DNA of 42,800 nucleotides, taken from contig FIZJ01000019.1 in NCBI GenBank assembly GCA_900019385.1, positions 1-42,800 of the forward strand, written 5' to 3'. Positions 19,552-42,122 of the stretch are shown in pieces. The notes under the pieces were generated by a model. That model was not told the DNA's origin and did no database searches. It saw only the letters and a program-made list of their open reading frames with translations. This DNA comes from an uncultured Clostridia bacterium. Lineage in GTDB: Bacteria > Bacillota > Limnochordia > Darwinibacteriales > DTU012. The first letter of the stretch is position 1; each line of letters opens with the position of its first letter. Made by a program: the position numbers and the translations under genes.

Positions 19552-19572
19552 CCTGTCCACTCCCATCGACAC

Positions 19573-20778
19573 TTATTTGGCAAACAGGCTCAAGTCAATA
19601 AACTCTCCCATTCGCTTGTACCCCTCGGCGCTGGGATGGAGGTGATCGCCGGTGTCATAGATGCCGAGGAGCCGCTCAGGATGATCCGGATCCCTTAAAG
19701 CCAGGTCGAAGTCGATCACAGCGTCAAACACGCCGCTGGTGCGGATCCATTCATTGACTATCTGCCGCGCCTGCTCCCGGACCGGAGTATCATACTGAGA
19801 CCCCCCGAACGGCAGAATCGTGGCGCCGTAGACCAAGATGCCCCGACCGTGGGCCTGTTCGACGAAATGCTGGTAGACACTGATCAGATTGTGGGCTACT
19901 GCTGTGGAGTTGCTCGAGCCGATATCGTTGACTCCGGCGAGGATGATCACATACTTGACACCCGGCTGCTCCAAAACATCGCGGTTGAAGCGCCTGAACA
20001 CCGTAGGGCCTAATCCGCCGGCCAGCACCGCATTGCCGCCGATGCCGTGGTTCAGCACACCGATGTGTGCCGTGGCCTCGTTGGCCTGCAGGCGTTCGGC
20101 GAGAATGTCGGGCCAGCGGTTGTGGCGGTCGGTGGTTGACCCGCGGCCGTCGGTGATCGAATCGCCAATCACCACAACGGCTGCTGAGTTGGGGTTGCCG
20201 GCTGCGACATCGATGCCGTTAATCACATACCAGTGCTCTGTGGGCACAGGCTGCCGCATCCACTCCGGATCAACCGCACTATCCGTCGATATGTACGAAG
20301 TCGTGCGGGAGCCTGGATGGCCGGTGAGGGCTGATGGAACGGCGCCGAAATGAATGGTGATCGCCACAGCCGTTAGGCTCGGGAGGGAATAAGCCATCGG
20401 ATCAGATATGACAGTCTCTCCCGGCGGTATTGTCACCGCCTGCTCACCGTTAAAGGTGATTATCAGTCCAGTTTCAGGTTTAATGCGGTGGGCGCCGGCC
20501 GCTTGGGCCAGATGCACCGCCTTGATTTCCAAAGGCCCGTTCCCGTACTCGTTGGAAAGCTTGAGCCTGATCAGCTCACCGCCTATGGATACCCGGACCA
20601 CCTGGCGCAGAGTGTTGTAGGCCAGCCCGGGGTGGGGAGGCATGTTGTGCGGTTCCACAAGCTGCTGCGACGAAGCCCAGGTGCCGACCCAACTCCCGTC
20701 CAGCGAGCCCGCCGCCGCGGCTCCTTTCGCAAAGCCAACCACAGCCAGCAGTAAAAAAATGATTACAGCTTTGTTCAC
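19573..20778 (-). CDS. Secreted SGNH/GDSL esterase, probable acetylxylan esterase
   Basis: 401 residues from a GTG start with GAGGGGG 8 nt upstream. Signal peptide residues 1-23 (KGAAAAG). The SGNH blocks are present: GDSITDG with Ser207 (block I), GIGGN (block II), GVND (block III) and DHLHPS with Asp378 and His381 (block V). The roughly 180 residues before block I form an N-terminal beta-rich domain (GSWVGTWASSQQLVEP) seen in a subgroup of carbohydrate esterases. Natural xylan is acetylated, and the gene lies between two GH115-related genes, so deacetylation of xylan is the likely role. Rhamnogalacturonan or other ester substrates cannot be excluded. It lies directly upstream of the secreted GH115. 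Confidence 0.82.
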   Translation of the reverse strand: MNKAVIIFLLLAVVGFAKGAAAAGSLDGSWVGTWASSQQLVEPHNMPPHPGLAYNTLRQVVRVSIGGELIRLKLSNEYGNGPLEIKAVHLAQAAGAHRIKPETGLIITFNGEQAVTIPPGETVISDPMAYSLPSLTAVAITIHFGAVPSALTGHPGSRTTSYISTDSAVDPEWMRQPVPTEHWYVINGIDVAAGNPNSAAVVVIGDSITDGRGSTTDRHNRWPDILAERLQANEATAHIGVLNHGIGGNAVLAGGLGPTVFRRFNRDVLEQPGVKYVIILAGVNDIGSSNSTAVAHNLISVYQHFVEQAHGRGILVYGATILPFGGSQYDTPVREQARQIVNEWIRTSGVFDAVIDFDLALRDPDHPERLLGIYDTGDHLHPSAEGYKRMGEFIDLSLFAK

Positions 20779-20802
20779 AGCTCCGGCCCCCTCTTTTCTT
20801 TT

Positions 20803-20839
20803 GAGGCACTGTGCAGGCTTTGAGCCTGCACAATGCCTC
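20803..20839 (-). repeat. Strong intercistronic hairpin (shared stem family)
   Basis: GAGGCA-C-TGTGCAGGC, loop TTTGA, GCCTGCACA-A-TGCCTC: 15 base pairs with one mismatch. It lies between the DNRLRE protein stop and the esterase start. There is no T-run on either strand. The 12-mer CACTGTGCAGGC recurs in the hairpin at 38218-38263. Confidence 0.75.
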
Positions 20840-20851
20840 TGCCTCGGTCAA

Positions 20852-21433
20852 CTAATATGTGATGACCAGTTGTGGGTGTTTGGTTGCATCTGCCCCTTCT
20901 TTGCTGGTGAAGAAGATGGCGCCGCCCCAGTGGTCTGATTTGTGCTCGATCCGGATCGAGACCACTTTAGTGCCGGCGGCAGCGTGTTTCTTAACGAATT
21001 CAGTAAGGTTGATCTCCAGCCATACATTGGCGAAGTTGTCCGTGAAGACGTCGCGGATGTGCTCGCCGCCGGTCTTGGGGGCAGTTTCCCATGTGAGTGT
21101 GTTTTCCGACCACTCTACCCCGGTAATGTCATACAGGGCGATGTGCTTCATCTCCAGCACATCGTTGAGCTCCATGAACAGCCGCAGCGTGGCCCTCTCG
21201 ACATTCTCGATCTCGCTGATATCGAACTTGAGGAAAACAGTCCGGGTCATCCCTCCCCGGTCAGATTCCCACTTCAACTGCAGCACGTCGGCATTGCCGA
21301 AGTTATTAGCGGCGTCGCCGCCGTCCCGGATATAAGTGTCCTCCAGGGGTTTGAGGACAAGCTCAGCGGCGGAAACATTCACCGCCAGGCAAAACACAGC
21401 CAGCAGCACTAAAACCAGACTTCGCTTAAGCAT
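20852..21433 (-). CDS. Secreted stand-alone DNRLRE/CBM96-like protein
   Basis: About 193 residues. The frame is open to 21499, but the ATG at 21433 has AGGTGG upstream and begins a clean signal peptide (LKRSLVLVLLAV...NVSA before AELVLKP), so I start there. The mature protein is one beta-sandwich module homologous to the C-terminal tail of the secreted GH115: both share GMTR.(A/T)F.KFD(V/I)S, VERA.LRL and a final FTS(K/R)E near the C-terminus. DNRLRE/CBM96-like modules bind acidic or decorated polysaccharides. No catalytic residues are recognised. It may be a free carbohydrate-binding protein that assists the GH115 or the esterase, or a structural partner. It is followed by a strong hairpin. 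Confidence 0.7.
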   Translation of the reverse strand: MLKRSLVLVLLAVFCLAVNVSAAELVLKPLEDTYIRDGGDAANNFGNADVLQLKWESDRGGMTRTVFLKFDISEIENVERATLRLFMELNDVLEMKHIALYDITGVEWSENTLTWETAPKTGGEHIRDVFTDNFANVWLEINLTEFVKKHAAAGTKVVSIRIEHKSDHWGGAIFFTSKEGADATKHPQLVITY

Positions 21434-21522
21434 ATTGTCCACCTGCACTCCTTTTTTGGTTTTCAGCATGGAAGACCAAACTACTACCAACCGCCACATA
21501 AAGCCCTGCTGCCCTTAGATGT

Positions 21523-24369
21523 TCACCTCCTCTGCGTCACAGAAGCCAAAGGTACAAAGAAACTCTCCGGCGGCCCAAGATAGCTCGGTTTGACTCCGCC
21601 GCGGTCGATTACGATCTTCTGCAGGACAACGGCAGGATCCACCATCCAGAACTTGAGCCTGTGCATTCCCGGTGTGCTTATTTGGTGTTTGGTGGCTGTC
21701 TTTCTGATGTTGTCCATCACCCCAACGCTCCACAAAGGTGAAGTATAGAAAGCGTCATTCTCTTTCGGGAATGTGTCCACGATCTTCACCGGCTGATCGT
21801 CAAAGGAAACGCCGTAACAAAGCCCCCGGGCCCGGTCGATGTTGTTCGAAGGAGCGGTATAGGCCCATACCGTCACTTCTCCTGCCTCGGTTAGATATAC
21901 ATTGTATTCCAAATGGGGAGCGCAGGGAGGATTCATCACCGGACAGGGCTTGGGAAAGATCGCCATCGACCCCAAAGTACGCCCGTAATCCGGAATGCGC
22001 TCCCATTTGATGCCTTCCACCGCCACATTCCTGGCGAAATGCTCTGCCTCGATCGACACAAAGCCGTTGGCTTCGATGAAGGTCATGGGCTCCAGGTGGC
22101 CGAAATCCTCCAGCCGCACGTTCTGGCCTGAGACAACCACCGTTATCTCCTTGCCCGTACCGGTGACGGTTATTGTTCCCGAAAACCTGCCCACAGGGGC
22201 TTTTTCCCAATCGATGTCGATCCAGAACCGCTGCTGCTCCTTGATTTCCCCGCCGCCTTCAACCATAATCCACGGCTCGTTCACCACAACATCCACCGGG
22301 AAGGGATCGCTTCCCAGGTTGAAAATCTCAATATAATGCCGTTCTTTGAGCAAACTGTGGAATGCCGGCAGAGCATCGATCACCGAGCGGTCCCGGGCCC
22401 AAACTTGTGTGCGGCCTTCCACCGCCACCGCCATCTCTGCGCCAGGCTTTGTCTCGACCCGCCGCAGCTGCGGCATGATGTTCCTCTCCGGTATCCGCCA
22501 GCCAGTCTGCCCGATGTGGCCGTTCATCATCACTCCCTGCCACTTGCCTTTTGCCAGAGTGTGGTTGTAGTGTTCAGTGTCCGCTGCCTCCGCCGCGAAC
22601 ACCTGGGCTGCCAGTTCTGCATATGTGTTGGCGGCGGGCCGGCCCTGCTGGGCATAGAGACAGTTCAAAGCGGTGCAGACATTCAGCTTCACCAGATGAT
22701 AACTCCCCCTCACCGGATAAAGGACCAGCTGGAAGAAGGCGTCCCGCTTCGCTGCAGGGAGTCTCTCGTAGATCTCTTCGCTTACTCTGACAAGCCGCTC
22801 GTATTCCTCCAAAACCCGCTCCGCTTCCCGGTAATGCAGCACACTGTAGGTATCGGGCTGGATGTGTTCCGGTTTGCGCCTGCCGTTATACTTGATGTAT
22901 TTCCAGACAATTTCCCCGATCCGGGGGGCGAATTCCGGGCCGAATTCCCGCTCGGCCCACTCCCGGGTGAACTCCGTCAGGTTTTCCCTGTTCCACTTGT
23001 GCACATCGTAGGCTAGATCCAAGAAAAATTCCGTGGGGACCTCATGGCCTTTCAGATCGCCCACATTCACAATCCAGACGCGGTCCACACCGTAATCATA
23101 GGCCATGCGCATCTGTTCCCAGATCTTGGCGAAAGGAACTGTGTCCACCCAGCGGTAGGATTTGGGCCCACCGACATAGTCAAAGTGGTAGTACATCCCG
23201 TACCCGCCGGGGCGGCCTCGCTCCGCTTCGCTGGGCAGCATGCGAATGTTGCCGAAATTGTCGTTGGCGAGAAGAATCGTTACGTCGTCAGGGATGTTGA
23301 TCCCGTTTTCCCAGAACTCCTGCACTTCTTTGTACAAAGCGAAAACCTGTGGGATTTCCACCGGATCTTTGCCCGTAATATCGGCGAGAATCTGCCGCTG
23401 GTCGGAAATAATCCTCTCCATCACCGCCATCCGTTCTTTGAGCGTCCCGGCGTCCATCATCGGTTCGTCGCCGTCGCCGCGCATGCCGATGGTGACCAGC
23501 TTCTCATAGTCCTTGCTCACCCTGATCCCGTCCCGCCAGAACAGGATCAGGTTTTCCCGGTTCTTGCTGTAATTCCACTCACCGGTGCCGTACTTGCCCC
23601 ATTCGTCCCAACTCCGCATCATCGGCTCATGATGGGAAGTGCCCATGACAATCCCGTACTCGTCGGCCAGTTTGCCGTTGAGTAAGTCGTCCCGGTAAAA
23701 AGTGGATGGTTTCCACATGGCAGGCCAGAGCAGATTGCCTTTAAGCCTTAAGATCAGCTCAAAGATCTTGGTGTAGAACTGGTGGTTGAACCCGCCGAAT
23801 TGGCGGCGGGCCCACCCGCCAAGGCTCGGCCATTCGTTGTTGAGGAAGATCCCCCGGTATTTCACCGACGGCTCTCCTTGTTTGTACACACCGCGGCGGA
23901 CTACCAAGGCATCCTGGCTCTGAGGCGCCACATCGGCCCACCAATACCAGGGCGAAACGCCGATCTGTCTGGAAAGCTCATAAATGCCGTAAATGGTGCC
24001 CCTTTTATCGCTGCCGGCGATCACCAGGCCAAGTTCCACATTGGGCATGGGGTTGGGTACGGCCTGAATCACATAGGCCTCCCATTTGCCTGCGACACCT
24101 GCGGTATCAAGCTTGCCTGAAGCGGCTAAGCTGTCGATCAGCGGGCTTTTGCCGATGGTACCGACGATCACAGTCTCGTGGACAAGCTCGGCCCCATCTG
24201 TTTTGACCTTGGGCAGGCAGCCGGTCACCCGGTGGATATCGTCCCGGAGATCCATCAGTGCTCGCTTCACTCCGGGATACGCGTCTCTTTCGGCATACAG
24301 ATCCGCAACCACACCGTCCAAAACCAGGCGAAAATCACCAGGTTGGTAATCTTGCCCCACGAAAGCCAT
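21523..24369 (-). CDS. Cytosolic GH115 alpha-glucuronidase
   Basis: 948 residues, no signal peptide, start ATG behind GAGGAGGTGGGGAC. The sequence runs parallel to the secreted GH115 (15577-19551) through all hallmark stretches: GTIYGIYELSRQIG, YRGIFLNNEW, GTSHHEPMM, GMRGDGDEPM, NDNFGNIRMLPS and YHFDYVGGPKSYRW. It ends shortly after YLGPPESFF, at the point where the secreted version continues into its linker and DNRLRE tail. It should remove methylglucuronic acid from imported aldouronic acids. It is placed immediately after the GH3 gene and before the small DNRLRE gene. Having separate secreted and internal GH115 genes in one locus is uncommon. Confidence 0.9.
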   Translation of the reverse strand: MAFVGQDYQPGDFRLVLDGVVADLYAERDAYPGVKRALMDLRDDIHRVTGCLPKVKTDGAELVHETVIVGTIGKSPLIDSLAASGKLDTAGVAGKWEAYVIQAVPNPMPNVELGLVIAGSDKRGTIYGIYELSRQIGVSPWYWWADVAPQSQDALVVRRGVYKQGEPSVKYRGIFLNNEWPSLGGWARRQFGGFNHQFYTKIFELILRLKGNLLWPAMWKPSTFYRDDLLNGKLADEYGIVMGTSHHEPMMRSWDEWGKYGTGEWNYSKNRENLILFWRDGIRVSKDYEKLVTIGMRGDGDEPMMDAGTLKERMAVMERIISDQRQILADITGKDPVEIPQVFALYKEVQEFWENGINIPDDVTILLANDNFGNIRMLPSEAERGRPGGYGMYYHFDYVGGPKSYRWVDTVPFAKIWEQMRMAYDYGVDRVWIVNVGDLKGHEVPTEFFLDLAYDVHKWNRENLTEFTREWAEREFGPEFAPRIGEIVWKYIKYNGRRKPEHIQPDTYSVLHYREAERVLEEYERLVRVSEEIYERLPAAKRDAFFQLVLYPVRGSYHLVKLNVCTALNCLYAQQGRPAANTYAELAAQVFAAEAADTEHYNHTLAKGKWQGVMMNGHIGQTGWRIPERNIMPQLRRVETKPGAEMAVAVEGRTQVWARDRSVIDALPAFHSLLKERHYIEIFNLGSDPFPVDVVVNEPWIMVEGGGEIKEQQRFWIDIDWEKAPVGRFSGTITVTGTGKEITVVVSGQNVRLEDFGHLEPMTFIEANGFVSIEAEHFARNVAVEGIKWERIPDYGRTLGSMAIFPKPCPVMNPPCAPHLEYNVYLTEAGEVTVWAYTAPSNNIDRARGLCYGVSFDDQPVKIVDTFPKENDAFYTSPLWSVGVMDNIRKTATKHQISTPGMHRLKFWMVDPAVVLQKIVIDRGGVKPSYLGPPESFFVPLASVTQRR

Positions 24370-26820: not shown

Positions 26821-27819
26821 TTAAAATCGCATAATTCTCTCTAAAGCCGGTTTTGGCTTGTGCTGCATGTCAAAGAGGAGTGGCCAGTTCTTGCGACCGC
26901 GCACCGGGAAGTTGTGCAGCCAGGTGACATCATCGGCAGCACCCCACAAAGTCACGTTGGTGATCACCCCGGCATACTCCCGGAACAAGGCGAAGACCTG
27001 CTCATAGCGCTCCGCTTGTTTTTCGAGCATCTCGGCCGTAGGCTCCGCCAAGTCTGTGCGCCGGTCCTCAAAGGCGAACATGGACATATCCAGCTCGGTG
27101 ATGTGCAGCTGCAAACCTAAAGAAGCGTATTGTTCAATCGCTTCCCGGATATCGTCAAGCGAAGGCCAATGGATGTTCCAGTGCGCCTGCAGCCCTATGC
27201 CGTGAATGGGAACTCCTTTCTCCTTTAAGCCCCTGACCAGCCGATAGATTTTGTCCCGCTTATCCGGCTGGCTTTCGTTGTAGTCGTTATAGAACAATAG
27301 CGCGTCCGGATCGGCGGCATGGGCGTATTCAAACGCTTTTTCAATGAATTCCGGGCCGATGATTTCCAGCCACGGCGATTTCTGCCGCAAAACGTCCGGG
27401 CCTGAATCGGCAACTGCTTCGTTGACCACATCCCAGCAGTAGACAGCGCCGCGGTAGCGGGAAACAACGGTATTGATATGCTCCTCCATCCGCTTCAGAA
27501 GCACATCCTTGCCCACAAACCCGCCGCCCTCATCCTGAAACACCCAAGGCGCGTTTTGGTTGTGCCAGACCAGGGTATGCCCTCGCACCAACTTGCTGTG
27601 TTCCTTGGCGAAGGCAACCATCCGGTCTGCCTGGGTAAAGTCATAAGTGTCAGGCGTTGGGTGGATTGGCCCGAACTTCATGTGGTTTTCTGATGTCAAA
27701 CTGTTAAAGTGGTTCACCAAAAGCTCTTTGTGAGTCTCCAAAGTTCTGGGGCTGACACAAGTCCCGACAGCAAAAAAGGGCTCATACTTCTTGTACAAGG
27801 ATTGAATCAGTTCCGACAT
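26821..27819 (-). CDS. Intracellular GH10 xylanase
   Basis: 332 residues, only the GH10 barrel, no leader, as in known intracellular xylanases of Geobacillus and Paenibacillus. Acid/base Glu134 (DVVNEAVADSG) and nucleophile Glu242 (LHITELDMSMF) are present, with the HTLVWHNQ binding loop. The RBS AAGGAGG overlaps the stop codon of the preceding GH43-like gene, so the two are tightly coupled. It should cut imported long or decorated xylo-oligosaccharides inside the cell. Its secreted, modular counterpart is at 13168-15504. Confidence 0.93.
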   Translation of the reverse strand: MSELIQSLYKKYEPFFAVGTCVSPRTLETHKELLVNHFNSLTSENHMKFGPIHPTPDTYDFTQADRMVAFAKEHSKLVRGHTLVWHNQNAPWVFQDEGGGFVGKDVLLKRMEEHINTVVSRYRGAVYCWDVVNEAVADSGPDVLRQKSPWLEIIGPEFIEKAFEYAHAADPDALLFYNDYNESQPDKRDKIYRLVRGLKEKGVPIHGIGLQAHWNIHWPSLDDIREAIEQYASLGLQLHITELDMSMFAFEDRRTDLAEPTAEMLEKQAERYEQVFALFREYAGVITNVTLWGAADDVTWLHNFPVRGRKNWPLLFDMQHKPKPALERIMRF

Positions 27820-29742: not shown

Positions 29743-31251
29743 TTACTCGATTTCATACAGGAAGTTGGAGAAATCGGCATACCCGCCCGCTTCCTTTGTG
29801 GAAAACATGAACAGACCGAAGCGGCAGCCGGTGAAATGATCCAGCCTGAACCGGACTTTCAGCGCTCCACCCATGTTGAGCCAGCCGTCCTCCTTGATAA
29901 AGAACCGCACTTCGTCTTTCATATTGAGGAATTCAGCAGTGAGCCGGAACGTTGCCTGGGGTGACTCCAGCCATTTCTTGGCGTATACCACAGGCTGCCC
30001 CAGTCCGGGATTGTCCACCGGTTTCCCCATCACTACGGCAAAATACTGGCCGCTGTTCTTGGTGATGGCGATCATCTGGTAGCAGCCCTGCAGGGCGCAG
30101 ATCCCGGCATAGTCCCCTTCTTTGATTCCAGACGCGTCGATGGTGACCGTCCCGCTGCAGCCGGGGAATGCCATCCGTTGGGTGAGGATGTTGTTGGCCT
30201 GACAAAGGTCCATCACGGTTTTATCAGTATAAATCCTGAATGTGCCGGGTTTTTCCGTCACGCTCCACAGATGATCCTTTGGGTTGTGGTTCCACTGCCA
30301 CACCGGCTTCAGCCTCACTTTGCCGCCGGCGTCCGGCAGGTAGTTGAAATCGTCCGAGGCGTAAAGCGGTGTATACTGGTGCCCCGGCCGCGTCGACTTC
30401 ACCGGAAACTCTTCGGGGATCTTCCCGTCGATGCCGAAGACGGGGAACCCATTCTCAAAGCGAATGGGCACCAAGATTGGTATCCTGCCCACAGCGCCGC
30501 TGTCCTGGAACAGCACCGCGTACCAGTCGCCTTCGGGCGTATCCACAATCCCGCCCTGAGCCACGCCTTGATCCAAATAGCCTCGATCATCGTTCAAGAC
30601 ATCGCCGCCGGTAAACTCACCTTCCAGCGAATCCGACACAAAACAGGCCTGCACCCTGCGCCAGCGCTCCGGCAGGGAATGAATCAAAAAGAGGTAGTAC
30701 TTGCCGTTGATCTTGTAAATATGTGACCCTTCGTAACCCAGTATCGTATTGCCGGCGTCGGACACCACGAGCCGGTGCAGCCCGCCCGGCTTTGGCCCGC
30801 TGAGATCCGGCTCAAGCTCAGTGAGCCAAATCTCTTTATGGCCGTAGACAATAAAAGCCCGATCCCCGTCGAACAAAAGCGACGGATCGTGGTAAAAACC
30901 CTCGATATGGCGCTTCCGCCACGGGCCTGTGATTTCTTCCGCTTCGAATAAATATGTTTTGCGGGTGTCGTTCGCAGAAAAGCAGACATAAAACCGATTG
31001 TGGGCATAACGAATGCATGGCGCCCACATGCCCCTGCCGTAGATTCCTTTGCCGTCGTCCAGGTTGTGGGCGGGATTGTCTTCCAGTTGGTCATAGACAT
31101 AAGTCAAGTGCTCCCAGTGCGCCAGATCATAGGACCGCAGGATCACGCCGCCGGGCATGAAATGCATGGTGGTGCTGATCATGTAATAGGTGTCGCCGAC
31201 CCGGATCACATCGGGATCGGGATAATCCATTCTGGTGAGGGGATTGATCAT
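29743..31251 (-). CDS. Cytosolic GH43 beta-xylosidase-type enzyme
   Basis: About 502 residues. The open frame starts at 31272, but the sequence there is itself the ribosome binding site (AAGGAGG), so the ATG at 31251 (INPLTRMDYPDPDV) is the better start. There is no leader. The GH43 propeller has PDPDV (base), HDPSLLFD (modulator) and YEGSHIYK (acid). A C-terminal beta-sandwich starts at ASDDFN and contains WQWNHNP, the standard two-domain layout of this GH43 type. It parallels the first part of the 1504-residue protein but without the CBM insertion. Likely removes xylose or arabinose from imported oligosaccharides. An operator palindrome and a hairpin separate it from the transporter genes. 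Confidence 0.87.
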   Translation of the reverse strand: MINPLTRMDYPDPDVIRVGDTYYMISTTMHFMPGGVILRSYDLAHWEHLTYVYDQLEDNPAHNLDDGKGIYGRGMWAPCIRYAHNRFYVCFSANDTRKTYLFEAEEITGPWRKRHIEGFYHDPSLLFDGDRAFIVYGHKEIWLTELEPDLSGPKPGGLHRLVVSDAGNTILGYEGSHIYKINGKYYLFLIHSLPERWRRVQACFVSDSLEGEFTGGDVLNDDRGYLDQGVAQGGIVDTPEGDWYAVLFQDSGAVGRIPILVPIRFENGFPVFGIDGKIPEEFPVKSTRPGHQYTPLYASDDFNYLPDAGGKVRLKPVWQWNHNPKDHLWSVTEKPGTFRIYTDKTVMDLCQANNILTQRMAFPGCSGTVTIDASGIKEGDYAGICALQGCYQMIAITKNSGQYFAVVMGKPVDNPGLGQPVVYAKKWLESPQATFRLTAEFLNMKDEVRFFIKEDGWLNMGGALKVRFRLDHFTGCRFGLFMFSTKEAGGYADFSNFLYEIE

Positions 31252-31299
31252 GGTGTCCTCGACCTCCTTCATGCTCCGTAAAACACCGCTCCGGATATG

Positions 31300-32331: not shown

Positions 32332-33240
32332 TCACACGTTATAGAACACAAACCGCCCGACTACCACCGAAACCAGCGCCAACAGCGCCGCAATAAAGCC
32401 AAAATACATCATGGACATGGCCATCGCCACACCAAAGCCGGCGCCGGTGAAAGACACCTGTTCAATCAGCATGATCAGCTGATTCTGGGGTGTGGTGAAC
32501 GAATCGATCACCGTGTACACCAGGTTGGTCAGAATCAGCGGGCTCAACCCTGGGAAGGTTATCAGCCAGAATTTTTCCCAGCCTGTAGCTCCTTCCACAT
32601 CCGCCGCTTCATAGACACTGGGTGGGATCGACTGCAGCCCCGCCAAGAAGATCAGGATCTGCACTCCAGAGTCGCGGATGATTTCCGGGCTGCCGGTAAT
32701 CACTTCGATCAAGTATTCCAAAACAGCGTCGGGCAGGCGGATCATGCCCAATATCTGCCGCAGGGCGTTGCCGGCGAAGTAGTTGGCTCTGGCGGTTTCC
32801 TGGGCCATGATGTACGCCCAGTCGCCGGTCTCCATCCTGAGTACGACTCCCGCCCCCAAAATCACCGGCAGGAACAGGATCATTCTCGCAAGGGACCTGC
32901 CTCTGAATCTCTGGTTGAGAATGCTGGCGGCGAACAGACTGAACCCGATGATCATCGGCAGTGTGCTCAAAGTGTCGGTGATGTTCTCCACGAATCTTTC
33001 ATTGAATGTCGCGTGCTGGAACAGAGCATAGCTGAAGTTGCCCAACCCTTTCCACACCAGAGTGTAGCCGTCCCTGCCCAACTGCAGCTCATTGAGGCTG
33101 AAGAGAATCGACTCAATGAACGGGCGCAGGAAGAACAAGGAAAAGCCGATAATAAACGGAAATGTGAACAGCAAGCCGCCCAGCGCCTGCCGCTGCCTGT
33201 AGCCAACTTTAAAAATCCTTCTCTTCCGCTTCTTGGCCAA
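32332..33240 (-). CDS. Sugar ABC transporter permease (CUT1, MalF-like)
   Basis: About 302 residues. The frame is open to 33327, but AAGGAGGGG followed 6 nt later by TTG at 33240 marks the probable start (LAKKRKRRIFKVGYRQ). That gives a 32-bp overlap with the end of the DUF5696 gene, which suggests translational coupling. Hydrophobic segments and the EAA-type loop (YEAADVEGATGWEKFWLITFP) are clear. It is the first permease of the importer pair. The basic N-terminus (KKRKRR) is consistent with the cytoplasmic side. Confidence 0.88.
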   Translation of the reverse strand: MAKKRKRRIFKVGYRQRQALGGLLFTFPFIIGFSLFFLRPFIESILFSLNELQLGRDGYTLVWKGLGNFSYALFQHATFNERFVENITDTLSTLPMIIGFSLFAASILNQRFRGRSLARMILFLPVILGAGVVLRMETGDWAYIMAQETARANYFAGNALRQILGMIRLPDAVLEYLIEVITGSPEIIRDSGVQILIFLAGLQSIPPSVYEAADVEGATGWEKFWLITFPGLSPLILTNLVYTVIDSFTTPQNQLIMLIEQVSFTGAGFGVAMAMSMMYFGFIAALLALVSVVVGRFVFYNV

Positions 33241-35968
33241 GTTGATCCCCTCCTTCCAGGACGTGATAGCCAAACGCAGGTATCTCCACACCCATGACTT
33301 CCACAGGTTCCGAATTGTAGTTGACAATCACGGTGAGCCCGCTTTCATATGTGGTCTTGTAAACATTGACCGCCAAGCTTTGATGGCCGGTAATCCTCTC
33401 GTTCCAAACCGGGCCGAGCACGCTGACGACTTCCCCATACACCCGCATGATTTCGTCGCTGTGATCCAGGTAGTTGATGGCGTACAAGTCGTCAAAACGG
33501 GAAGCTTTGACCACTGTCGAATCCGAGTAGGAAAGCAGGTAATACGGCACCGCTCCGGTTTCCAAAAGCTTGAGCAGGTAAGTCTGAACCCTGGTGGTCA
33601 AGTTCCCCGGCTCGCCCGCATAGGGGATGTAGCCCCGCAGGGCAATCTGGTAGAACGGCACTCCTTGGTCGAGAATCTCAAAATTGCGGCTGTATAGGGG
33701 CATCTCCACCACAAAGTCCGCGTACGGCAGGGTATAGGCATTGGCGCCGCTCAGCATTAAGGACATATTGTTCTGCTTAAGCTTGCGGAGTTCGTCAACC
33801 ACCTTCTCCTTCGCCTGCTCCCGGTCAATCAGTTCGCTCTCCTTCAACTTGTAATCGGCGTACAGATCCCGGCCCAAAGCATCGAAGGAGAGAGCTGGGA
33901 TGCCGTATTCGGCGTACCGATCCATGAATTTGCCGATCACCCGGGACAGCTGCCCGATGGACAAGATCGGGATTTCTTCGCCCTGAATCCTAAGATGCGT
34001 GGCCAAATCATAACGGTTGAGATAGGCTGGCCTTCTGTCCAATGCCCTGGCTGTGTCCCGGAAGTGGATGAAATCATCGAACAGGGTCGTTTTGAACACA
34101 TGAAGGAAGTTGACATTGGGATACAGCTTAACATTCTTGGCATTAAGGTTTGAAGCCAGATCCTTCAACTCTTGCTTGGTGCCGAGTTTGGACTCAAGTT
34201 TGAGCCCTGTGGGAAAGACGTGTTCGATGCCGCCTTTCAGCCACCCGTTGTAGCGGACCACCAGGTTATTGACGCCTTGACCTAGGAAATGCTCCACCAC
34301 TGTCTCGGCTTGGGTAAATGTAGTCACCGGCTTCACCACATTCTGAGACACGCCGAAGACTGGCTCCACTTTTTCAATACCGCCGATCAGCTCCAACAGC
34401 AGCGGCACTTCCGGATCCTGTGCTTTTTTCAGTCCGAAGCGGTCAACAAGATACTGCTGGTAGTATAAAGCCATCCCTGTATAATTCGCGGCCGATTCAT
34501 CCAAAAAGGCGTAGCGGATCACGATATCACTGAGCAAAGGCCGCACCTGGTACATCATGATCGACAAGTCCCGCATGTAGATCACAGCTCCGCCGGACTG
34601 CATGTACACCCGGGCGTTGGGAATGTATGAGAAGCTGCCGTAGACTTTGTTGTACGAGTCGCTCATCCCGGCGATTTCCGCGATAATCGTGGCTGCCGCT
34701 TCGCCCGACTCCATGATTGCCAGGAACGCCCGGTCGCTGTGCTTGATGCCAAACACCGGCAGGTGGACTTGGGATTCCATTTCATAAGAATACTCCCGCA
34801 CCGCCGCTGAAGCGTGATCCCGGCCGTAGACCTCGCGGCGGTAAGGCTGGACACCTTGCTTGCCGCTGTTGAGGTTAATCAGGGCGCCTGAGCCGTCAGG
34901 CACAAAGATATAGCCTTTTTCTTGAGAATTCGCGGCGCCGAAATACGGCAGGACTGCGATCGTAGTGAGTGGATAGGTGACCCGTTTTTTCGTGGCGGCG
35001 TCATACACATCCTTGGGATAGACCACATCCTCGCTGGGTACCCGCACCACCAACTCGCCGCCGTCTATGACATATTCAATCGCAACTCTGAAGATGCGCA
35101 GATTCTTTTCGGGCGGCGTCACATTGTATTTCAAATGCTCCTCGATCACCCGATCCGGAGAATAACCGCTGTCCTTGAGCAGCTGGATCAGTGTTTCTTC
35201 GTCCCAGACCATCACATTCCATTTCCGCATCAAGGTGGTGCGGTCGAAGGCGTAGGCGATGTCCTCGGTCTTCACACCTCCCAGTGCGGCATAGCCCTTG
35301 TACTCCTGCACAGCCTTTATATATTCCTGAATCAGCCGTCTTTTGTCAGTGGCTCTGAACCGAGGTTCTTCGACACGGATGCCGTAATCGCCCAAGAGCG
35401 CTTCCAAGTCCACTCCCAAAATGGATATATTGTCCGGGTCGACATATCCCGGCTCCACGGTGAACATGGCGTATTGGTCGCGGACGAACTGTCGATCTTC
35501 GTCGCTGTCCAGGTAGGAGAGGAGATTGTCAAACTCTTCCTTGCTGATTACCAAAGGGAGGTAAGCCTTGTCATCCCATTCCTTGCCGATCAGGTATTCA
35601 ACCCTCACACCGTTTTCAATGGGAATGACATTGTGCTGGCCGTGGATCACGCTCCCTGTGTATGTGTCCATGGTGATATACTGGTTGCCCACGTAATACC
35701 CGATGAATAGTTGAGCATTCAGCCGATCCTTTGCTGCGCCCCTAGCCATGGTCTCCATAGTTTGGCGGTCGGCTGGATTCGAATACCAGACATGGCCGGT
35801 CGACTTCACCAGGACCGCAATCTCTGTGGTATTCTCATTGAAGTACAGCTGCAGCTGCTCGTTTTCGGCGGCCAGTTCAAAGCCGGCAAGCTGAGCCTGG
35901 GCGCCGCCAAACCAGACAGCCGCGATTATGAACGCCAACACAGCTGTGAACAATTGCCTGCGCAACAT
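33209..35968 (-). CDS. Large secreted DUF5696-type protein, candidate glycosidase-like fold
   Basis: About 919 residues. Start ATG 35968 with GGGGAG 9 nt upstream; the preceding ten in-frame codons are probably untranslated. Signal peptide LRRQLFTAVLAF...AQA. I recognise it as the DUF5696 family found beside CUT1 importers in Paenibacillus-like bacteria; its function is not known to me. The layout looks like a glycosidase: an N-terminal region with strand-rich character (VWYSNPADR), the motif YIFVPDGSGALI, a middle part that could be a TIM barrel (about 520-780, including SFDALGRD with Asp696), and a C-terminal beta-sandwich (VIVNYNSEPVEV). It lies between the Yip1 protein and the permeases and overlaps the MalF-like gene. 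It might process or hand over oligosaccharides outside the membrane. Function is inference. Confidence 0.7.
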   Translation of the reverse strand: MLRRQLFTAVLAFIIAAVWFGGAQAQLAGFELAAENEQLQLYFNENTTEIAVLVKSTGHVWYSNPADRQTMETMARGAAKDRLNAQLFIGYYVGNQYITMDTYTGSVIHGQHNVIPIENGVRVEYLIGKEWDDKAYLPLVISKEEFDNLLSYLDSDEDRQFVRDQYAMFTVEPGYVDPDNISILGVDLEALLGDYGIRVEEPRFRATDKRRLIQEYIKAVQEYKGYAALGGVKTEDIAYAFDRTTLMRKWNVMVWDEETLIQLLKDSGYSPDRVIEEHLKYNVTPPEKNLRIFRVAIEYVIDGGELVVRVPSEDVVYPKDVYDAATKKRVTYPLTTIAVLPYFGAANSQEKGYIFVPDGSGALINLNSGKQGVQPYRREVYGRDHASAAVREYSYEMESQVHLPVFGIKHSDRAFLAIMESGEAAATIIAEIAGMSDSYNKVYGSFSYIPNARVYMQSGGAVIYMRDLSIMMYQVRPLLSDIVIRYAFLDESAANYTGMALYYQQYLVDRFGLKKAQDPEVPLLLELIGGIEKVEPVFGVSQNVVKPVTTFTQAETVVEHFLGQGVNNLVVRYNGWLKGGIEHVFPTGLKLESKLGTKQELKDLASNLNAKNVKLYPNVNFLHVFKTTLFDDFIHFRDTARALDRRPAYLNRYDLATHLRIQGEEIPILSIGQLSRVIGKFMDRYAEYGIPALSFDALGRDLYADYKLKESELIDREQAKEKVVDELRKLKQNNMSLMLSGANAYTLPYADFVVEMPLYSRNFEILDQGVPFYQIALRGYIPYAGEPGNLTTRVQTYLLKLLETGAVPYYLLSYSDSTVVKASRFDDLYAINYLDHSDEIMRVYGEVVSVLGPVWNERITGHQSLAVNVYKTTYESGLTVIVNYNSEPVEVMGVEIPAFGYHVLEGGDQLGQEAEEKDF

Positions 35969-35994
35969 CCTCTGTCCACTCCCCTCGCCTGGAA

Positions 35995-38178
35995 TCAAAC
36001 CCGGTACGCGATTTCAGTAAACACTTCATTGGCAAAGCGATAGACCAGTTCCAAAAGGTTCAGCAGCACAAGCCCGAGGAAGATGGTGAAGACCATGCCC
36101 ACCAGTGTGAGGATCGTCGTAAAAATCGACTTGCCAATAGTGTACTCGTGGGTGATCATCATGACACCGATGAAAATCAGGGCTCCCGACCAGCCTACGG
36201 CTATGGATGTAAGCAGGTAGTAGAACGCGCCTTCTTCCAGGATCAGGTAGTTGCTGACCACAATCAACGGCAAGTTGATCAGGACAATCGGGATCAAGGA
36301 ATAGGCAGTAGCGATGACAATTTGCTTAAAAGTGCCTTTGCCGGTCATCAGTGTGGTGAACGCCCAGTTGACCCCGGCCCACAAACCGAAAGGCAGAATC
36401 ACACTGGCCAGTTCCACAAGGATGTTCAACCGGGCCGGGTCGTTGTGGTTGAACAAGAACCCGGTATATTGCCGTATCAATGTATAGGTGATTGTCACCA
36501 GAATCAGAATCACCAAAGCCGCCGGGACACTGCCCCGCTGTCTGTATTTCAACTCATAGAACCCGTCAAAGGGATGGAAAATGACATGCAATCCATACTT
36601 CAGGCTGTGGTACAGCCTCAAGGCCTTGCCTTTGAAATCGGTGCGCTCGGTCAAAGCTATCCAGGCGGCCTCTTTGGCGGCTGCCGTCATCTCTCGGGAC
36701 TGTATGCCGAGGCGTCTTTTAATCCACGGCCAGAGCATCACCAAAACAATAATCACGGCTATACCAGTCATGACGTAGGAGAAACGCTCCTTCATAACAA
36801 TCGCCCGGTATTCCTGGTAAGCCCGGGAATAGTATGAACGGTTTTGGCCCAGCTTGAAGTAGTACATGGCTTCGTCGAACCGCTCCTGCAGCAAAAGCGA
36901 ACGGCCGATGCCGGTATAGGCCAGGTCATAGTTGGCGTTCAGTTTGAGCACTTCCCGCCACAGCGCTTCTTCTTGCTCGTACTTACCTTTATTGTAGAGC
37001 TCCACAGCATTAAGGATCAGCCTGGTATAGTCTGTCGGCTCGAAGACCAAGATCTGGCCGCGCTCGTCATCGATCACCACCAGATCCAGGCCGATATGGT
37101 CAATGGCAATCCCCCGGGCCACCTGCCCGTGAGCGCGCCCGCGGTAGCCGAACATGAACAGTAAATGGCCGTCGTCATCGTATGTGTAGATCCGGCTGCG
37201 GGTCCGGTCAAGCACACTGTAAATACCCTGCGAGAACACAGTTACGTCCACAAATGTCGATCGCCCGTAATACGTTGACTGCTGCCACATGTTGGTGTAC
37301 TGGACGTCACCTATGGGCCGATGAAAACCATACCTTCTCAGCGAATCTTCTCCCGCTGGGTTCAGCCGCCGGATGGCGTCCCCTTCCTCACTTGCGACAG
37401 TGGCGTAGAGAAATCCCGCCTCATCTAGATCGAAACTACTGTATTCCACAGGCAAGAACAAATTGCGCTTAGCTTTTTGCTCGTCAGTCGACAGCAAAAA
37501 CCAGATGTACTCCCACGGGCTGACGCTGACCTTTGGAGCGCCGATCACACCGCGGAAAATACCTTGCGCGTCAAAAGTGATGACGCCTTCGAAATAGTCC
37601 TCAGATAATACAAACATGTACCCTTTGTCATTGACACCGATTTTGAACGGGCGGTACCTGAAAGTGTCAGGGAACATGTCTTCGTGGCCAACGTGAGGCG
37701 AACCGAGAATACGTTTCAAGCTGCCGTCCTGACCCAGGTGGACGACACGGCTGTTGCCGGTATCCGCCACGTAGATATCCTGTTCGACACTGATGGATAC
37801 GCTTGCAGGGCCGGAAAACCTCTCCCAAGTACCGTTATTCATAAAGCCGTCGATGATTCTCAAGAGGTTCCAGTCTAAATCAAGCTGTACGATGCGGTTG
37901 TTGCCGGTATCGACAACATAGATGTGGTTGTTTTTCTCATCCACCACAATATCCCTGGGCTGCCTGAGGCTGTCCAAGCCCAGTTCCGCGGCGGTGATCA
38001 CCCGTTTGGGCAGGTAAGCGATGGGCCCCTCCACGGGATTGTCCCAATAGTTCCAGGTATAGCTCCGGTAAGGGACTAGAAATGTGGAAAGATGCAGTTC
38101 ATCGCCGGCCGCTGTGCCGGCCCAGCCGGCCAGGAGTATCAGCGATAGAAACACGAGCCGTTTTAGTATAGAGCGCAT
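35995..38178 (-). CDS. NHL-repeat / TPR / Yip1 membrane protein associated with the importer
   Basis: 727 residues. Signal peptide-like start (MRSILKRLVFLSLILLAG). Residues about 60-390 carry NHL-type propeller repeats (PRDIVVDEKNNHIYVVDTGN, PASVSISVEQDIYVADTGN), expected outside the membrane. A short TPR-like helical part follows (ALWREVLKLNANYDLAYTGIGRSL), then a transmembrane helix near 470-490. A charged segment leads to a Yip1 domain with about five membrane spans (about 550-725). Similar proteins lie next to DUF5696 and CUT1 permeases in other Firmicutes, but no function is established to my knowledge. The extracellular propeller could bind the solute-binding protein or DUF5696, and the membrane part could anchor them to the permease. 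The RBS is GGGGATG. Confidence 0.75.
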   Translation of the reverse strand: MRSILKRLVFLSLILLAGWAGTAAGDELHLSTFLVPYRSYTWNYWDNPVEGPIAYLPKRVITAAELGLDSLRQPRDIVVDEKNNHIYVVDTGNNRIVQLDLDWNLLRIIDGFMNNGTWERFSGPASVSISVEQDIYVADTGNSRVVHLGQDGSLKRILGSPHVGHEDMFPDTFRYRPFKIGVNDKGYMFVLSEDYFEGVITFDAQGIFRGVIGAPKVSVSPWEYIWFLLSTDEQKAKRNLFLPVEYSSFDLDEAGFLYATVASEEGDAIRRLNPAGEDSLRRYGFHRPIGDVQYTNMWQQSTYYGRSTFVDVTVFSQGIYSVLDRTRSRIYTYDDDGHLLFMFGYRGRAHGQVARGIAIDHIGLDLVVIDDERGQILVFEPTDYTRLILNAVELYNKGKYEQEEALWREVLKLNANYDLAYTGIGRSLLLQERFDEAMYYFKLGQNRSYYSRAYQEYRAIVMKERFSYVMTGIAVIIVLVMLWPWIKRRLGIQSREMTAAAKEAAWIALTERTDFKGKALRLYHSLKYGLHVIFHPFDGFYELKYRQRGSVPAALVILILVTITYTLIRQYTGFLFNHNDPARLNILVELASVILPFGLWAGVNWAFTTLMTGKGTFKQIVIATAYSLIPIVLINLPLIVVSNYLILEEGAFYYLLTSIAVGWSGALIFIGVMMITHEYTIGKSIFTTILTLVGMVFTIFLGLVLLNLLELVYRFANEVFTEIAYRV

Positions 38179-38217: not shown

Positions 38218-38263
38218 GGCGGTACACTGTGCAGGCCGTTTCGGCAACAGCCTGCACAGCGCC
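38218..38263 (-). repeat. Intercistronic hairpin after the first solute-binding protein gene
   Basis: CTGTGCAGGC (38227-38236) pairs perfectly with GCCTGCACAG (38250-38259); GGCG/CGCC adds an outer stem. No U-tract. It shares CACTGTGCAGGC with the hairpin at 20803-20839. It follows the SBP gene and precedes the Yip1 gene, the usual place for an element that protects SBP mRNA. Confidence 0.7.
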
Positions 38264-38279: not shown

Positions 38280-39578
38280 CTACTGGCCAAACATTTCGTC
38301 AATCATGGCTTGAGCGGTCTGTTTCACCTCTGCCGCTGCTGTGGCAGGGCTTACGTTGTTGTTGATATCTCCGCAGACTTTGCCGTATGGCAGGCTGCCG
38401 TCCCAGCGGCCGCCGAGGAAGTTCATATAGTAATCTTCAGGCCAGAAGCTCTCCACAGCCTGGTACAAAATCTCATAAGCTTGTTTGTCGGCGACGCGGC
38501 TGGCGATGTAGTTATCCAAATCCTCATAGTAATTGTCCAAAGTGAACAGGTAGTTGTCCAGGGCGATCAACCCCAGCGGGTACTCTGCATTCGCTGGGAC
38601 AAACCAAGCGTCAGCCGCCCCGGGCAGGAAGATCGGCTCATCATTGTACGGCGATTTGGGGAACGGCATGATTCCGTGAGTAAACGGCCAACTGGTGTGA
38701 TTGCCGAGATAATAGAACGGCAGGAACGCCATGGCAATCTGGCCGGCACTGAACTCGTTCTCTCCTTTGTCGGCAATCTGATCGACCTTGCGCCAATCGA
38801 CCCACTGGCGTAGTCCCGCCACCCCTTCCGGCTCATCCAAGGACCAGTACACTCTCCCGTTTTCATCCCGTCTGGTTACTGCGCCGCCGTAGGCATACAC
38901 CAGATTCTTCGGATCAATGTCGGACAGGCCCCATTGATCCACGATACCGTCACCGTCGGTGTCCCGGGTGGCCTTGCGGGCCATTTCCGTCACTTTCTCG
39001 AAAGTCCATTCGCCTCTTGCCAACAATTCGTACGGATCCTCCAACCCTTCGTTTGCCAGAAGATCTCTGTTGAAGACGACGAACACCGCATGCCCGTAAT
39101 CGTCCACGCCGGCGGAGAAGAAGTACATCTGGCCGTTGTAAGCCAACTCATAGTTGCGGTCACGGGTAATCTTGGGCAGCAGCTCAAAGTATTCTGGGGG
39201 CAGAATCTCGTTCACCGGGAACAGTGCGCCTCTGGATACTAATCCCCAATAATAGGCGAAGGGTGTCCGCCAGAGGTCGTATTTGGACTCGCCTGCCATG
39301 AAGCGGTTCAGAGCTGTATCGCCCACATCGCCCCAGCCGACGATCACCTTTTCATACCCGCCGATATTGAACAGTTCCATCGCTTCCCGGAGTGTTCCAG
39401 CCCTTGCCCCGCCTTCTTCAAACTGGGCAATGCCGTCCCAGTGCATGAGAAAACTCACTGTCGCTCCGCCGAAGTCGATCTCGCCAAAATCCATCCGATC
39501 GGATGTGTAGGCAAAAGCTCCTGACGCAGCCAACGCCAACACTATTGCTCCCAACACCAGAACTCTCTTCACACTCAC
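38280..39578 (-). CDS. Extracellular solute-binding protein of CUT1 importer, copy 1
   Basis: 432 residues from a GTG start with AAGGGGG 9 nt upstream. The leader MSVKRVLVLGAIVLALAASGAFA ends at a signal peptidase I site before YTSDRMDFG; there is no lipobox Cys. The mature protein has the size and pattern of family 1 sugar-binding proteins, with a DTDGDGIVDQWGL calcium-type loop. Most of the sequence matches copy 2 (39651-40958) position for position, including the N-terminus YTSDRMDFG and the C-terminal WPEDYYMNFLGGRWDGSLP. It should bind xylo-oligosaccharides for the two permeases. The lack of lipid anchor would need a periplasm or another way of retention. Confidence 0.9.
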   Translation of the reverse strand: MSVKRVLVLGAIVLALAASGAFAYTSDRMDFGEIDFGGATVSFLMHWDGIAQFEEGGARAGTLREAMELFNIGGYEKVIVGWGDVGDTALNRFMAGESKYDLWRTPFAYYWGLVSRGALFPVNEILPPEYFELLPKITRDRNYELAYNGQMYFFSAGVDDYGHAVFVVFNRDLLANEGLEDPYELLARGEWTFEKVTEMARKATRDTDGDGIVDQWGLSDIDPKNLVYAYGGAVTRRDENGRVYWSLDEPEGVAGLRQWVDWRKVDQIADKGENEFSAGQIAMAFLPFYYLGNHTSWPFTHGIMPFPKSPYNDEPIFLPGAADAWFVPANAEYPLGLIALDNYLFTLDNYYEDLDNYIASRVADKQAYEILYQAVESFWPEDYYMNFLGGRWDGSLPYGKVCGDINNNVSPATAAAEVKQTAQAMIDEMFGQ

Positions 39579-39650: not shown

Positions 39651-40958
39651 TCAGTAGCCGAACATGTCGTCGATGATTGTTTGAGCGGAAGCCTTAACCT
39701 CTGCAACGGATGTTGCCGGGCTGATCATGTTGTTGATATCGCCGCAGACCTTGCCGTAAGGCAAGCTGCCGTCCCAGCGGCCGCCGAGGAAGTTCATGTA
39801 GTAATCCTCTGGCCAGAAGTTCTCGACCGCTGTGTACAGGATTTCATACGCCTGCTTGTCGGCGACACGGCCGGCGATATAGTTGTCCAGATCCTCATAG
39901 TAGTTGTCAATCGGGAAGAGGTAGTTGTCCAAAGCCACCAAACCTAATGGGTACTCGGCATTGGCCGGGACAAACCACGCGTCGGCAGTGCCGGGCAGGA
40001 ACCGCGGAGCGTCTGTGTACGGGCTCTGCGGCCACGGCAGAATACCATGGGTAAACGGCCAGCTGGTATGGTTGCCGATGGCATAGAAGGGCAGGAACGC
40101 GAACGCATACTTGCCGGCGCCCCACTCAGCCTCGCCGCCGCTTGCCAAAGCAGTCGGACTGGCGATCTTGTCAACAAGGACCCAGTCTACCCACTGACGC
40201 AGGCCTGCGATAGCTTCTTCGGAATCCATGGCGAAGTACACTTTGCCATTTTCGTCACGCTTGGTAATAGCACCGCCGTAAGCATAGACAAGGTCTTTCG
40301 GATCCATATTGGACAAGCCGTATTGGTCGATGATACCGTCACCATCGGTATCCCGTGTCGCTTTTCTGGCCATTTCGGTCAGTTTCTCGAAAGTCCACTG
40401 GCCGTTGGCATACAGCTCGTAAGGATCCTCCAAACCTTCGGCATCCAGCAGGTCTTTGTTGAAGACAACGAAGGTGGCATGGCCGTAGTCATCGGTACCA
40501 GCCGAGAAGAAGTACAGCTGGCCGTTGAATGCCAACTCAAGGTTGCGGTCGTGAGTAATCTTGGGCAGAGCCTCGAAATACTCGTCCGGCAAAATCTCAT
40601 TCACCGGGAACAGCGCGCCGCGCGATGCCAATCCCCAGTAGAAAGCGAACGGTACGCGCCAGAGATCGTATTTCGACTCGCCTGCCATGAAGCGGTTCAG
40701 AGCTGTATCGCCCACATCGCCCCAGCCGACGACCACTTTCTCATACCCGCCGATGTTGAACAGCTCCATTGCTTCCTGGAGCACACCGGCCCGGCCGCCG
40801 CCTTCCTCAAACTGGCTAATGGCATCCCAGTGCATCACGAACGATACTGTGGCTCCCTTGAAATCAATGGTGCCGAAGTCCATCCGATCGGAAGTGTAGG
40901 CAAATGCGCTGGAAGCCAGCATCAAAACCAATACAAAGACCAACAGAGCTCTTTTCAT
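39651..40958 (-). CDS. Extracellular solute-binding protein of CUT1 importer, copy 2
   Basis: 435 residues, ATG behind a strong RBS (GGAAGGAGG). Leader MKRALLVFVLVLMLASSAFA before YTSDRMDFG, signal peptidase I type, no lipobox. It is a tandem paralogue of copy 1. The clearest difference is around residue 265, where copy 2 has SPTALASGGEAEWGAG and copy 1 the shorter ADKGENEFSAG; the rest differs mainly by single substitutions. The DTDGDGIIDQYGL loop is conserved. The first structural gene after the regulator, so probably the most highly expressed. The two copies may bind different xylan fragments (for example neutral and glucuronic-acid-bearing ones), which is inference. Confidence 0.9.
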   Translation of the reverse strand: MKRALLVFVLVLMLASSAFAYTSDRMDFGTIDFKGATVSFVMHWDAISQFEEGGGRAGVLQEAMELFNIGGYEKVVVGWGDVGDTALNRFMAGESKYDLWRVPFAFYWGLASRGALFPVNEILPDEYFEALPKITHDRNLELAFNGQLYFFSAGTDDYGHATFVVFNKDLLDAEGLEDPYELYANGQWTFEKLTEMARKATRDTDGDGIIDQYGLSNMDPKDLVYAYGGAITKRDENGKVYFAMDSEEAIAGLRQWVDWVLVDKIASPTALASGGEAEWGAGKYAFAFLPFYAIGNHTSWPFTHGILPWPQSPYTDAPRFLPGTADAWFVPANAEYPLGLVALDNYLFPIDNYYEDLDNYIAGRVADKQAYEILYTAVENFWPEDYYMNFLGGRWDGSLPYGKVCGDINNMISPATSVAEVKASAQTIIDDMFGY

Positions 40959-41072: not shown

Positions 41073-42095
41073 TTATGTAATGGGCTTACAGCTGCCCCGG
41101 ATAATGAGTTCCGTATCCATGAGCTTTGGCTTGCTGGCTTTATGATTAAGAATAATCTTCATGAGCAGTTTGGAAGCTGCAACGCCCATTTCATACTTCT
41201 GCTGTCTCACCGTGGTTAAGTTGTAGTGGCTGCTGATCTCGATATCGTCGAAGCCCACGATCGACAAGTCATCGGGGACACTTTTGCCGATCTCCCTCAG
41301 AGCTCTGATCATGCCGATGGCAACATTATCCTGGGCCACGACGGCCGTGGGCCATTCATCCAGCTGCTGCAGTTTGTTCACCACATCATACCCGTACTCT
41401 TCGTCAAACGAATACTGGAAAATCCATTCCGGCCTGCACTCCATCCCCAGGTCCCGGACCGTGTCCATCAAGCCTTGGTAACGCTTTTCCGCCGGCACAG
41501 ACTTGGTGCCCCCATCCGCATACCCAATCTTGCGGTGGCCGAGGCTGTGCAGATACTCAACAGCCAGTTTCGCCGACTTGTAGTTGTCGGAGATCACGTA
41601 GGACGTAAGGGGCCCCTCCAAAGTCATGTCGACAAACACGGTGGGGATGTCTGATGCCAGAATCGGCTCAAACTCAGCGAGCTCATCCCGGATGTAGCTG
41701 AGAAAAATCGCGCCGTCCACTCGGCGGTCTCGGCACTTCTCCAAATAGCCAAAGCTGACACCTGTGTTGCCCGGCCGTTTGTCGGCAAAATAGAGGATGT
41801 CGTAGCCTTGGGCTCCCAGTGTTTTTTCAATACCGGGGATCACTTCCCGGAAGAAGCTGTTGTTCAGCTCGCTGGCCATGAACAATCCAACCAAGTATGA
41901 CTGCTGCATCGACAGGCTCCGGGCCGTAGTGTTCGGCCAGTAGTTGTACTCCCGCATCACTTTAAGCACAGCCTGCCGCGTCTTCTCGTTGATGCCGCTG
42001 TAGCCGTTGATCACTTTTGATACAGTCGCCTTGGAAACATTGGCTTTTTTGGCGATATCATCGATTGTGGTCGCTCTTGTCCCCTGTTTTGCCAC
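41073..42095 (-). CDS. LacI-family transcriptional regulator
   Basis: About 340 residues. Start options are TTG 42113, ATG 42101 and GTG 42095. I prefer GTG 42095 (AKQGTRATT), because AGGGG lies 8 nt upstream of it. The helix-turn-helix is TIDDIAKKANVSKATVSKVING, followed by a hinge helix (PNTTARSLSMQQSYLVGLF) and a periplasmic-binding-protein-like sensor domain (VGFDDIEISSHYNLTTVRQ at its end). It probably represses the locus in the absence of xylan-derived sugars. Two palindromes lie directly upstream and matching ones precede two GH43 genes, suggesting autoregulation and control of the locus. The effector is unknown; a xylo-oligosaccharide or aldouronic acid is plausible. Confidence 0.92.
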   Translation of the reverse strand: MAKQGTRATTIDDIAKKANVSKATVSKVINGYSGINEKTRQAVLKVMREYNYWPNTTARSLSMQQSYLVGLFMASELNNSFFREVIPGIEKTLGAQGYDILYFADKRPGNTGVSFGYLEKCRDRRVDGAIFLSYIRDELAEFEPILASDIPTVFVDMTLEGPLTSYVISDNYKSAKLAVEYLHSLGHRKIGYADGGTKSVPAEKRYQGLMDTVRDLGMECRPEWIFQYSFDEEYGYDVVNKLQQLDEWPTAVVAQDNVAIGMIRALREIGKSVPDDLSIVGFDDIEISSHYNLTTVRQQKYEMGVAASKLLMKIILNHKASKPKLMDTELIIRGSCKPIT

Positions 42096-42122
42096 TACCA
42101 TTACCCCTGTCAATCAATCTCG

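Follow-up and report, generated by a model that had tools for sequence, protein, structure and literature searches.

It is commonly assumed that a carbohydrate ABC importer needs nothing beyond two permeases, an ATPase and a binding protein. The operon described here resembles the CUT1 importers (MalFGK2-type, with a shared MsmX/MalK ATPase) in its MalF and MalG permeases, its solute-binding proteins (SBPs), one stand-alone MalK-type ATPase in the genome and its glycosidase neighbours. To this usual CUT1 set it adds NHL-TPR, Yip1 and DUF5696 modules, and in many loci with the same cassette of genes an SBP-fusion protein and a second pair of permeases are present as well.

The added parts have described counterparts of their own. 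DUF5696 shares with the GH129 enzymes (ZgGH129, 5opq/8rzk; NagBb, 5wzn) a whole-length fold and a detectable similarity of sequence profiles. It departs from them in an acid/base position that is serine in the window and unconserved in the family, in the loss of the counterpart of NagBb D330, in an extra helical insertion in the beta-sandwich, in a gene tied to importer permeases, and in the absence of PF11308 (Glyco_hydro_129) from the matches of the window's protein at E 0.1. Despite the GH129-like fold, DUF5696 is set apart from membership of that family. YknW of the Bacillus YknWXYZ system is a Yip1-family protein with four transmembrane (TM) segments and the partner of an exporter (PMC4338810, PMC4887032). 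The membrane protein of our cassette is likewise a Yip1-family multi-span protein encoded with an ABC transporter, but whereas YknW has the Yip1 part only, here NHL-TPR is fused or adjacent to it and the partner is an importer.

The openly accessible literature that was covered holds no mention of DUF5696 and no account of NHL proteins with importer permeases or of Yip1 with Paenibacillus. The cassette is a genuine and widespread accessory module of CUT1 importers, apparently undescribed until now. We think it rather probable that NHL-TPR-Yip1 and DUF5696 are a near-obligatory extra part of a distinct class of these importers, in which they would form a complex, bind sugar and serve a transport step. 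Gene content, gene order and overlaps, a specific permease clade, the folds and a missing acid/base residue are the observations from which this reading starts.

The operon and its neighbours

The window, meaning the whole stretch of 42,800 nucleotides that was analysed, is an entire contig (C19) of a host genome of 2.17 Mb in 71 contigs. On its minus strand lie, in this order, genes for SBP1 (39651..40958), SBP2 (38280..39578), an NHL-TPR-Yip1 membrane protein of 727 residues (35995..38178), a DUF5696 protein of 919 residues counted from its ATG (33209..35968), a MalF-like permease (TTG 33240 to 32332) and a MalG-like permease (ATG 32314 to 31370, the ATG with GGGGGGAG). The stop codon of the Yip1 gene is separated from the DUF5696 ATG by 26 bp, and the 3' end of the DUF5696 gene overlaps the 5' end of malF by 32 bp (33209..33240), so that the strong malF Shine-Dalgarno sequence, AAGGAGGGG, about six bases 5' of the TTG, lies inside the DUF5696 gene. 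The gene positions, the approximate DUF5696 length and the overlap given in an earlier note on this DNA proved exact to the base. Both permeases match BPD_transp_1 (E 1.8e-14 for MalG) and are MalF/UgpA- and MalG/UgpE-like, a CUT1 importer trait. A LacI-family regulator on the same strand (41073..42113; Pfam LacI/Peripla_BP_3) likely controls the operon.

The two SBPs of the window lack a lipobox and have no Pfam match. SBP1 shares 30% identity along its length with the SBP from a further host cassette, L022 (E 5e-54), and weakly matches an arabino-oligosaccharide-binding protein in the PDB; SBP2 is homologous to SBPs of other cassettes, and those of further cassettes match Pfam SBP_bac_1. At the junction between SBP2 and the cassette, the minus strand encodes a predicted intercistronic hairpin with a 17-bp stem (38224..38262; dG -48.6 over a 106-nt stretch, z -4.45). 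An orthologue from the same genus, L141, has retained the hairpin (z -2.8), and the SBP-Yip1 junction of cassette L017 carries a strong hairpin with a U-tract (z -4.96); two other junctions that we examined are without a strong hairpin. Rfam yields no match in the region. Together with the tight overlaps, the hairpin suggests that the SBP is made in excess and the membrane-bound part is expressed as a unit. The earlier proposal of stoichiometric production accordingly fits DUF5696 and malF, with their tight overlap, but probably does not extend one-to-one to the SBPs. That NHL/Yip1 anchors the binding proteins, as was also proposed, has become less plausible as its main role, because the host encodes Omp85 and is therefore diderm, and would keep non-lipidated SBPs in the periplasm anyway; SBPs of Paenibacillus cassettes have lipobox-like signal sequences of their own.

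The enzymes encoded nearby (GH10, GH43, GH3 and GH115) provide a xylan context, from which oligosaccharide transport by the importer of the window would be predicted. Downstream on the minus strand lie a GH43 enzyme of beta-xylosidase type (29743..31272; Pfam GH43 and GH43_C2) and a GH10 xylanase without an obvious signal peptide (26821..27819; Pfam). Positions 250-26759, co-directional with the importer, hold several GH43 genes, GH10, GH39, two GH115 genes, GH3, a GDSL esterase, CBM96 and CBM6, and by gene content this region reads as a near-complete glucuronoarabinoxylan locus. Within it, a single cluster at 15577-24369 combines two genes for GH115 alpha-glucuronidases with two CBM96 modules, of which one (20852-21499) is free-standing.

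Other cassettes of the host have other neighbours: an alpha-fucosidase and GH42 (L017), an alpha-galactosidase and GH10 (L019), GH28 (L022) or an arabinofuranosidase (L024). The neighbours of copies outside the window include fucosidase, beta-galactosidase, pectinase and arabinofuranosidase genes. Since the neighbouring enzymes differ in this way, the module is linked neither to xylan nor to any other single substrate, and a substrate-independent importer part explains the variety better than a substrate-specific enzyme would. The label of a xylo-oligosaccharide importer, given in the earlier note, suits the neighbours in the window but not the copies that adjoin enzymes for other glycans.

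Folds of the two added proteins

The NHL-TPR-Yip1 protein of the window, as delimited by Pfam, hydropathy and structure prediction, comprises a signal peptide (about 1-26), an NHL propeller (39-381), TPR-like helices (383-445), a first TM segment (about 468-486) followed by basic residues, and a Yip1 domain (531-699). Pfam returns NHL at 2.7e-15, Yip1 at 1.7e-11 and a weak TPR_16; the AlphaFold model (mdd09a5f9417f) has a pLDDT of 91.8, and Foldseek matches the propeller to TRIM71, Brat and Pizza. Because the basic residues after the first TM segment would lie inside, the propeller and TPR helices are predicted to face the periplasm. NHL-TPR-TM and Yip1 are fused in about 40 loci and split into mostly overlapping genes in about 35, a pattern that reads as a fusion/fission signature of interacting parts. 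By the precedent of YknW, we infer that NHL-TPR-Yip1 may be a scaffold for transporter assembly.

The DUF5696 protein matches PF18952 at E 1.8e-187, with 625 bits against a Pfam gathering cut-off of 25.6. It consists of a signal-peptide-like helix (2-26), a beta-sandwich, a GH129-like (beta/alpha)8 barrel (about 523-815) and a C-terminal beta-sandwich (859-905), and its AlphaFold model has a pLDDT of 92.6. GH129 enzymes are its best structural matches (Foldseek E 1e-29); in the VIA comparison they align over 582 residues with Z 29 and an rmsd of 4.0 A, that is, over the whole-length fold, and the next rows (amylase, GH101) reach Z 19-21. GH129 chains are also reached without any structure, by the sequence profile of DUF5696 (E 1e-7 to 7e-6). 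PF11308 itself has zero matches in the host genome at E 0.001, and a search of the relatives and of 398 genomes of the phylum with it returned one distant protein only. The earlier note had seen no established function for DUF5696, to which a GH129-like fold can now be assigned.

When aligned to that distant GH129 protein with hhalign, the C-terminal domain of DUF5696 aligns confidently and the barrel weakly, so that the register of the nucleophile follows barrel topology and residue spacing. For the spacing we used NagBb, whose catalytic residues we take to be D435 and E478. In this register the nucleophile position, at the end of barrel strand 4, would fall on 696/697; the window has Asp at 696, one column off the family's 697. 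An assignment to S670 was rejected after a recount of strands and comparison with the NagBb spacing, which led to 696/697. At the acid/base position, 740 at the end of strand 5, the window has Ser and its 67% identical orthologue has Gly; the position is acidic in 32 of 76 relatives and without an acid in 44, in a register obtained from weak chained alignments through the distant protein. Where NagBb has D330, a single relative retains an acidic residue in the alignment and the other 75 have lost it. With these losses, most DUF5696 members, that of the window included, look non-catalytic, whichever register is taken for the nucleophile.

Could DUF5696 nevertheless be a working exo-glycosidase, its active site shifted or unusual, that cuts back oligosaccharides at the mouth of the channel before they are imported, with NHL-TPR-Yip1 as its tether? 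The fold and the distant sequence relation to GH129 are in keeping with such an enzyme. D705 and D767, in loops on the active-site side of the barrel, are conserved in 68 and 72 of the 76 relatives, respectively, and DUF5696 may therefore have an unusual active site. In the topology-based register 16 of the 76 have both catalytic acids; the number is 28 if acids at 705 and 740 are counted instead. We nonetheless judge an active enzyme unlikely, given the losses at 740 and at the D330 counterpart, the Asn that replaces D705 in 7 of 76 relatives, and the company that DUF5696 keeps with operons for very different glycans. In the model, R716, N743, N789, D705 and D767 suggest a pocket that has been kept. 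In our reading, DUF5696 is a CUT1 importer subunit that derives from GH129, is mostly non-catalytic and would bind sugar.

Gene linkage and the permease clade

Eight DUF5696 genes and eight Yip1 genes of the host form one-to-one pairs with malF and malG always next, and the order NHL-TPR-Yip1, DUF5696, malF, malG is identical in 8 of 8 loci. Across 61 genomes, a Yip1 gene stands upstream on the same strand, within 2.6 kb, for 93 of 106 DUF5696 pieces; the unpaired cases that were fetched are contig ends, a Yip1 gene missed by Pfam (G039) or a local reordering to DUF5696-malF-malG-Yip1 (G001:C9). Unpaired Yip1 genes mostly encode small proteins of 180-310 residues; those with NHL that we fetched are found at the ends of contigs beside a cut DUF5696 gene or at the same reordered locus. 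A scan of 84,980 species found at least 584 relatives. The nearest named relative is a Bacillota MAG, at 67% identity for DUF5696, and the more distant ones include Limnochordia. In the 80 best loci, which span Limnochordia, Halanaerobiaceae, Clostridia, Lachnospiraceae, Paenibacillus, Cohnella, Lederbergia and Bacillus, the order NHL/Yip1-DUF5696-malF-malG is found wherever the contig is long enough, which agrees with the earlier note, where the same gene set was placed in Paenibacillus-like genomes.

Since this sample is biased to close relatives, 119 genomes were also drawn evenly over the phylum. DUF5696 is encoded in nine of them, and the cassette was seen again in the loci inspected, including four (in G081, G124 and G143) on contigs outside the first sample. 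Weak DUF5696 matches in two genomes (G007, G009) were rejected as GH13-type and DUF6259 proteins. The DUF5696 and malF genes overlap in 66 of 81 loci (median gap -4 bp), in agreement with the translational coupling suspected from the window, and the median gap from Yip1 to DUF5696 in the same survey is 14 bp. Linkage of this kind goes far beyond chance.

A profile of the cassette MalF permeases (A5) separates them sharply from other permeases. In 31 genomes, 77 of the 79 permeases that score at least 140 bits lie directly behind DUF5696, compared with 1 of 16 at lower scores; the MalF of the window reaches 417.7 bits, against at most 134 for unlinked permeases. This sharp split means that DUF5696 travels with one permease clade and not with sugar importers generally. 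The earlier idea of an importer enlarged by these two proteins is supported. The two exceptions among the 79 are a contig-edge fragment and an orphan malF-malG pair on G000:C18, near which we found no DUF5696 or Yip1 gene, so the permeases may function without an adjacent cassette. This orphan pair (L146:3029-4750) lies directly behind a dCache methyl-accepting chemotaxis protein. At another locus (L149:6322-8190), the cassette MalF has an N-terminal extension of about 320 residues that is charged and coiled-coil-like. The host genome encodes exactly one OB_MalK ATPase, as a stand-alone gene outside the operon (C11:105742).

The cassette of the window is a core form with two SBPs. An extended form, found in three other host loci (L021, L022 and L024) and in 54 of the best 80 loci (L054-L133), has upstream of the cassette a second malF-malG pair and a protein of about 1000 residues with a C-terminal SBP domain, whose N-terminal half weakly matches carbohydrate-binding or golvesin-like domains. 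Most loci outside the lineage of the window have this SBP-fusion protein and second permease pair. Against the MalF profile, the second pair scores 43-104 bits, versus roughly 300-450 for the cassette MalF.

A patchy distribution, with DUF5696 in only 9 of the 119 evenly drawn genomes, would also fit the transfer of one mobile operon whose products have separate roles, such as sugar binding by a free DUF5696 protein in the periplasm and a function in the envelope for NHL-Yip1. Mirror-tree correlations do not speak against this, as those among the cassette proteins (0.86-0.91) are matched by an equally high SBP control and so are not informative on specific contact. What makes separate roles improbable in our view is that the cassette genes keep together and in order, with translational overlap and with fusion and fission, while the number and placing of SBPs, regulators and enzymes differ from locus to locus. 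We give similarly little credence to a sensor, made of the three proteins, that reports the presence of glycan or the occupancy of the transporter across the membrane and has no part in transport. An extracytoplasmic propeller and a pseudo-enzyme joined to a multi-span membrane domain, with a LacI regulator upstream, would suit one, but the loci inspected show no output domain, such as a kinase or an anti-sigma factor, as a fusion or a constant neighbour, and the constant partners are permeases.

A proposed mechanism and its meaning

If NHL-TPR-Yip1 and DUF5696 are indeed importer parts, then MalF and MalG would form the channel, driven by the genome's single MalK-type ATPase, and the Yip1 domain beside them would keep the complex together, by analogy with YknW in YknXYZ. 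The NHL propeller and TPR helices on the outer face would offer a docking platform. DUF5696, as a GH129-derived barrel mostly without catalytic residues, would bind the oligosaccharide or a loaded binding protein and present it at the mouth of the channel. More tentatively, and with a fair chance in our view though less likely than not, the cassette could define a new architecture among ABC importers. The dead glycosidase, the NHL-TPR platform and Yip1 would then be integral subunits of one stable machine in the envelope, the extended form of which would join two CUT1 permease pairs and the SBP-fusion receptor to import large or branched oligosaccharides.

Eight copies of the cassette are encoded in a single genome of 2.17 Mb. 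If our proposal holds, a conserved, multi-copy importer that brings sizeable additional subunits to the periplasm and membrane of plant-matter degraders would change the picture of the minimal importer, would give a function to DUF5696 and to the bacterial NHL-Yip1 protein, and would suggest a route for the import of large hemicellulose fragments.
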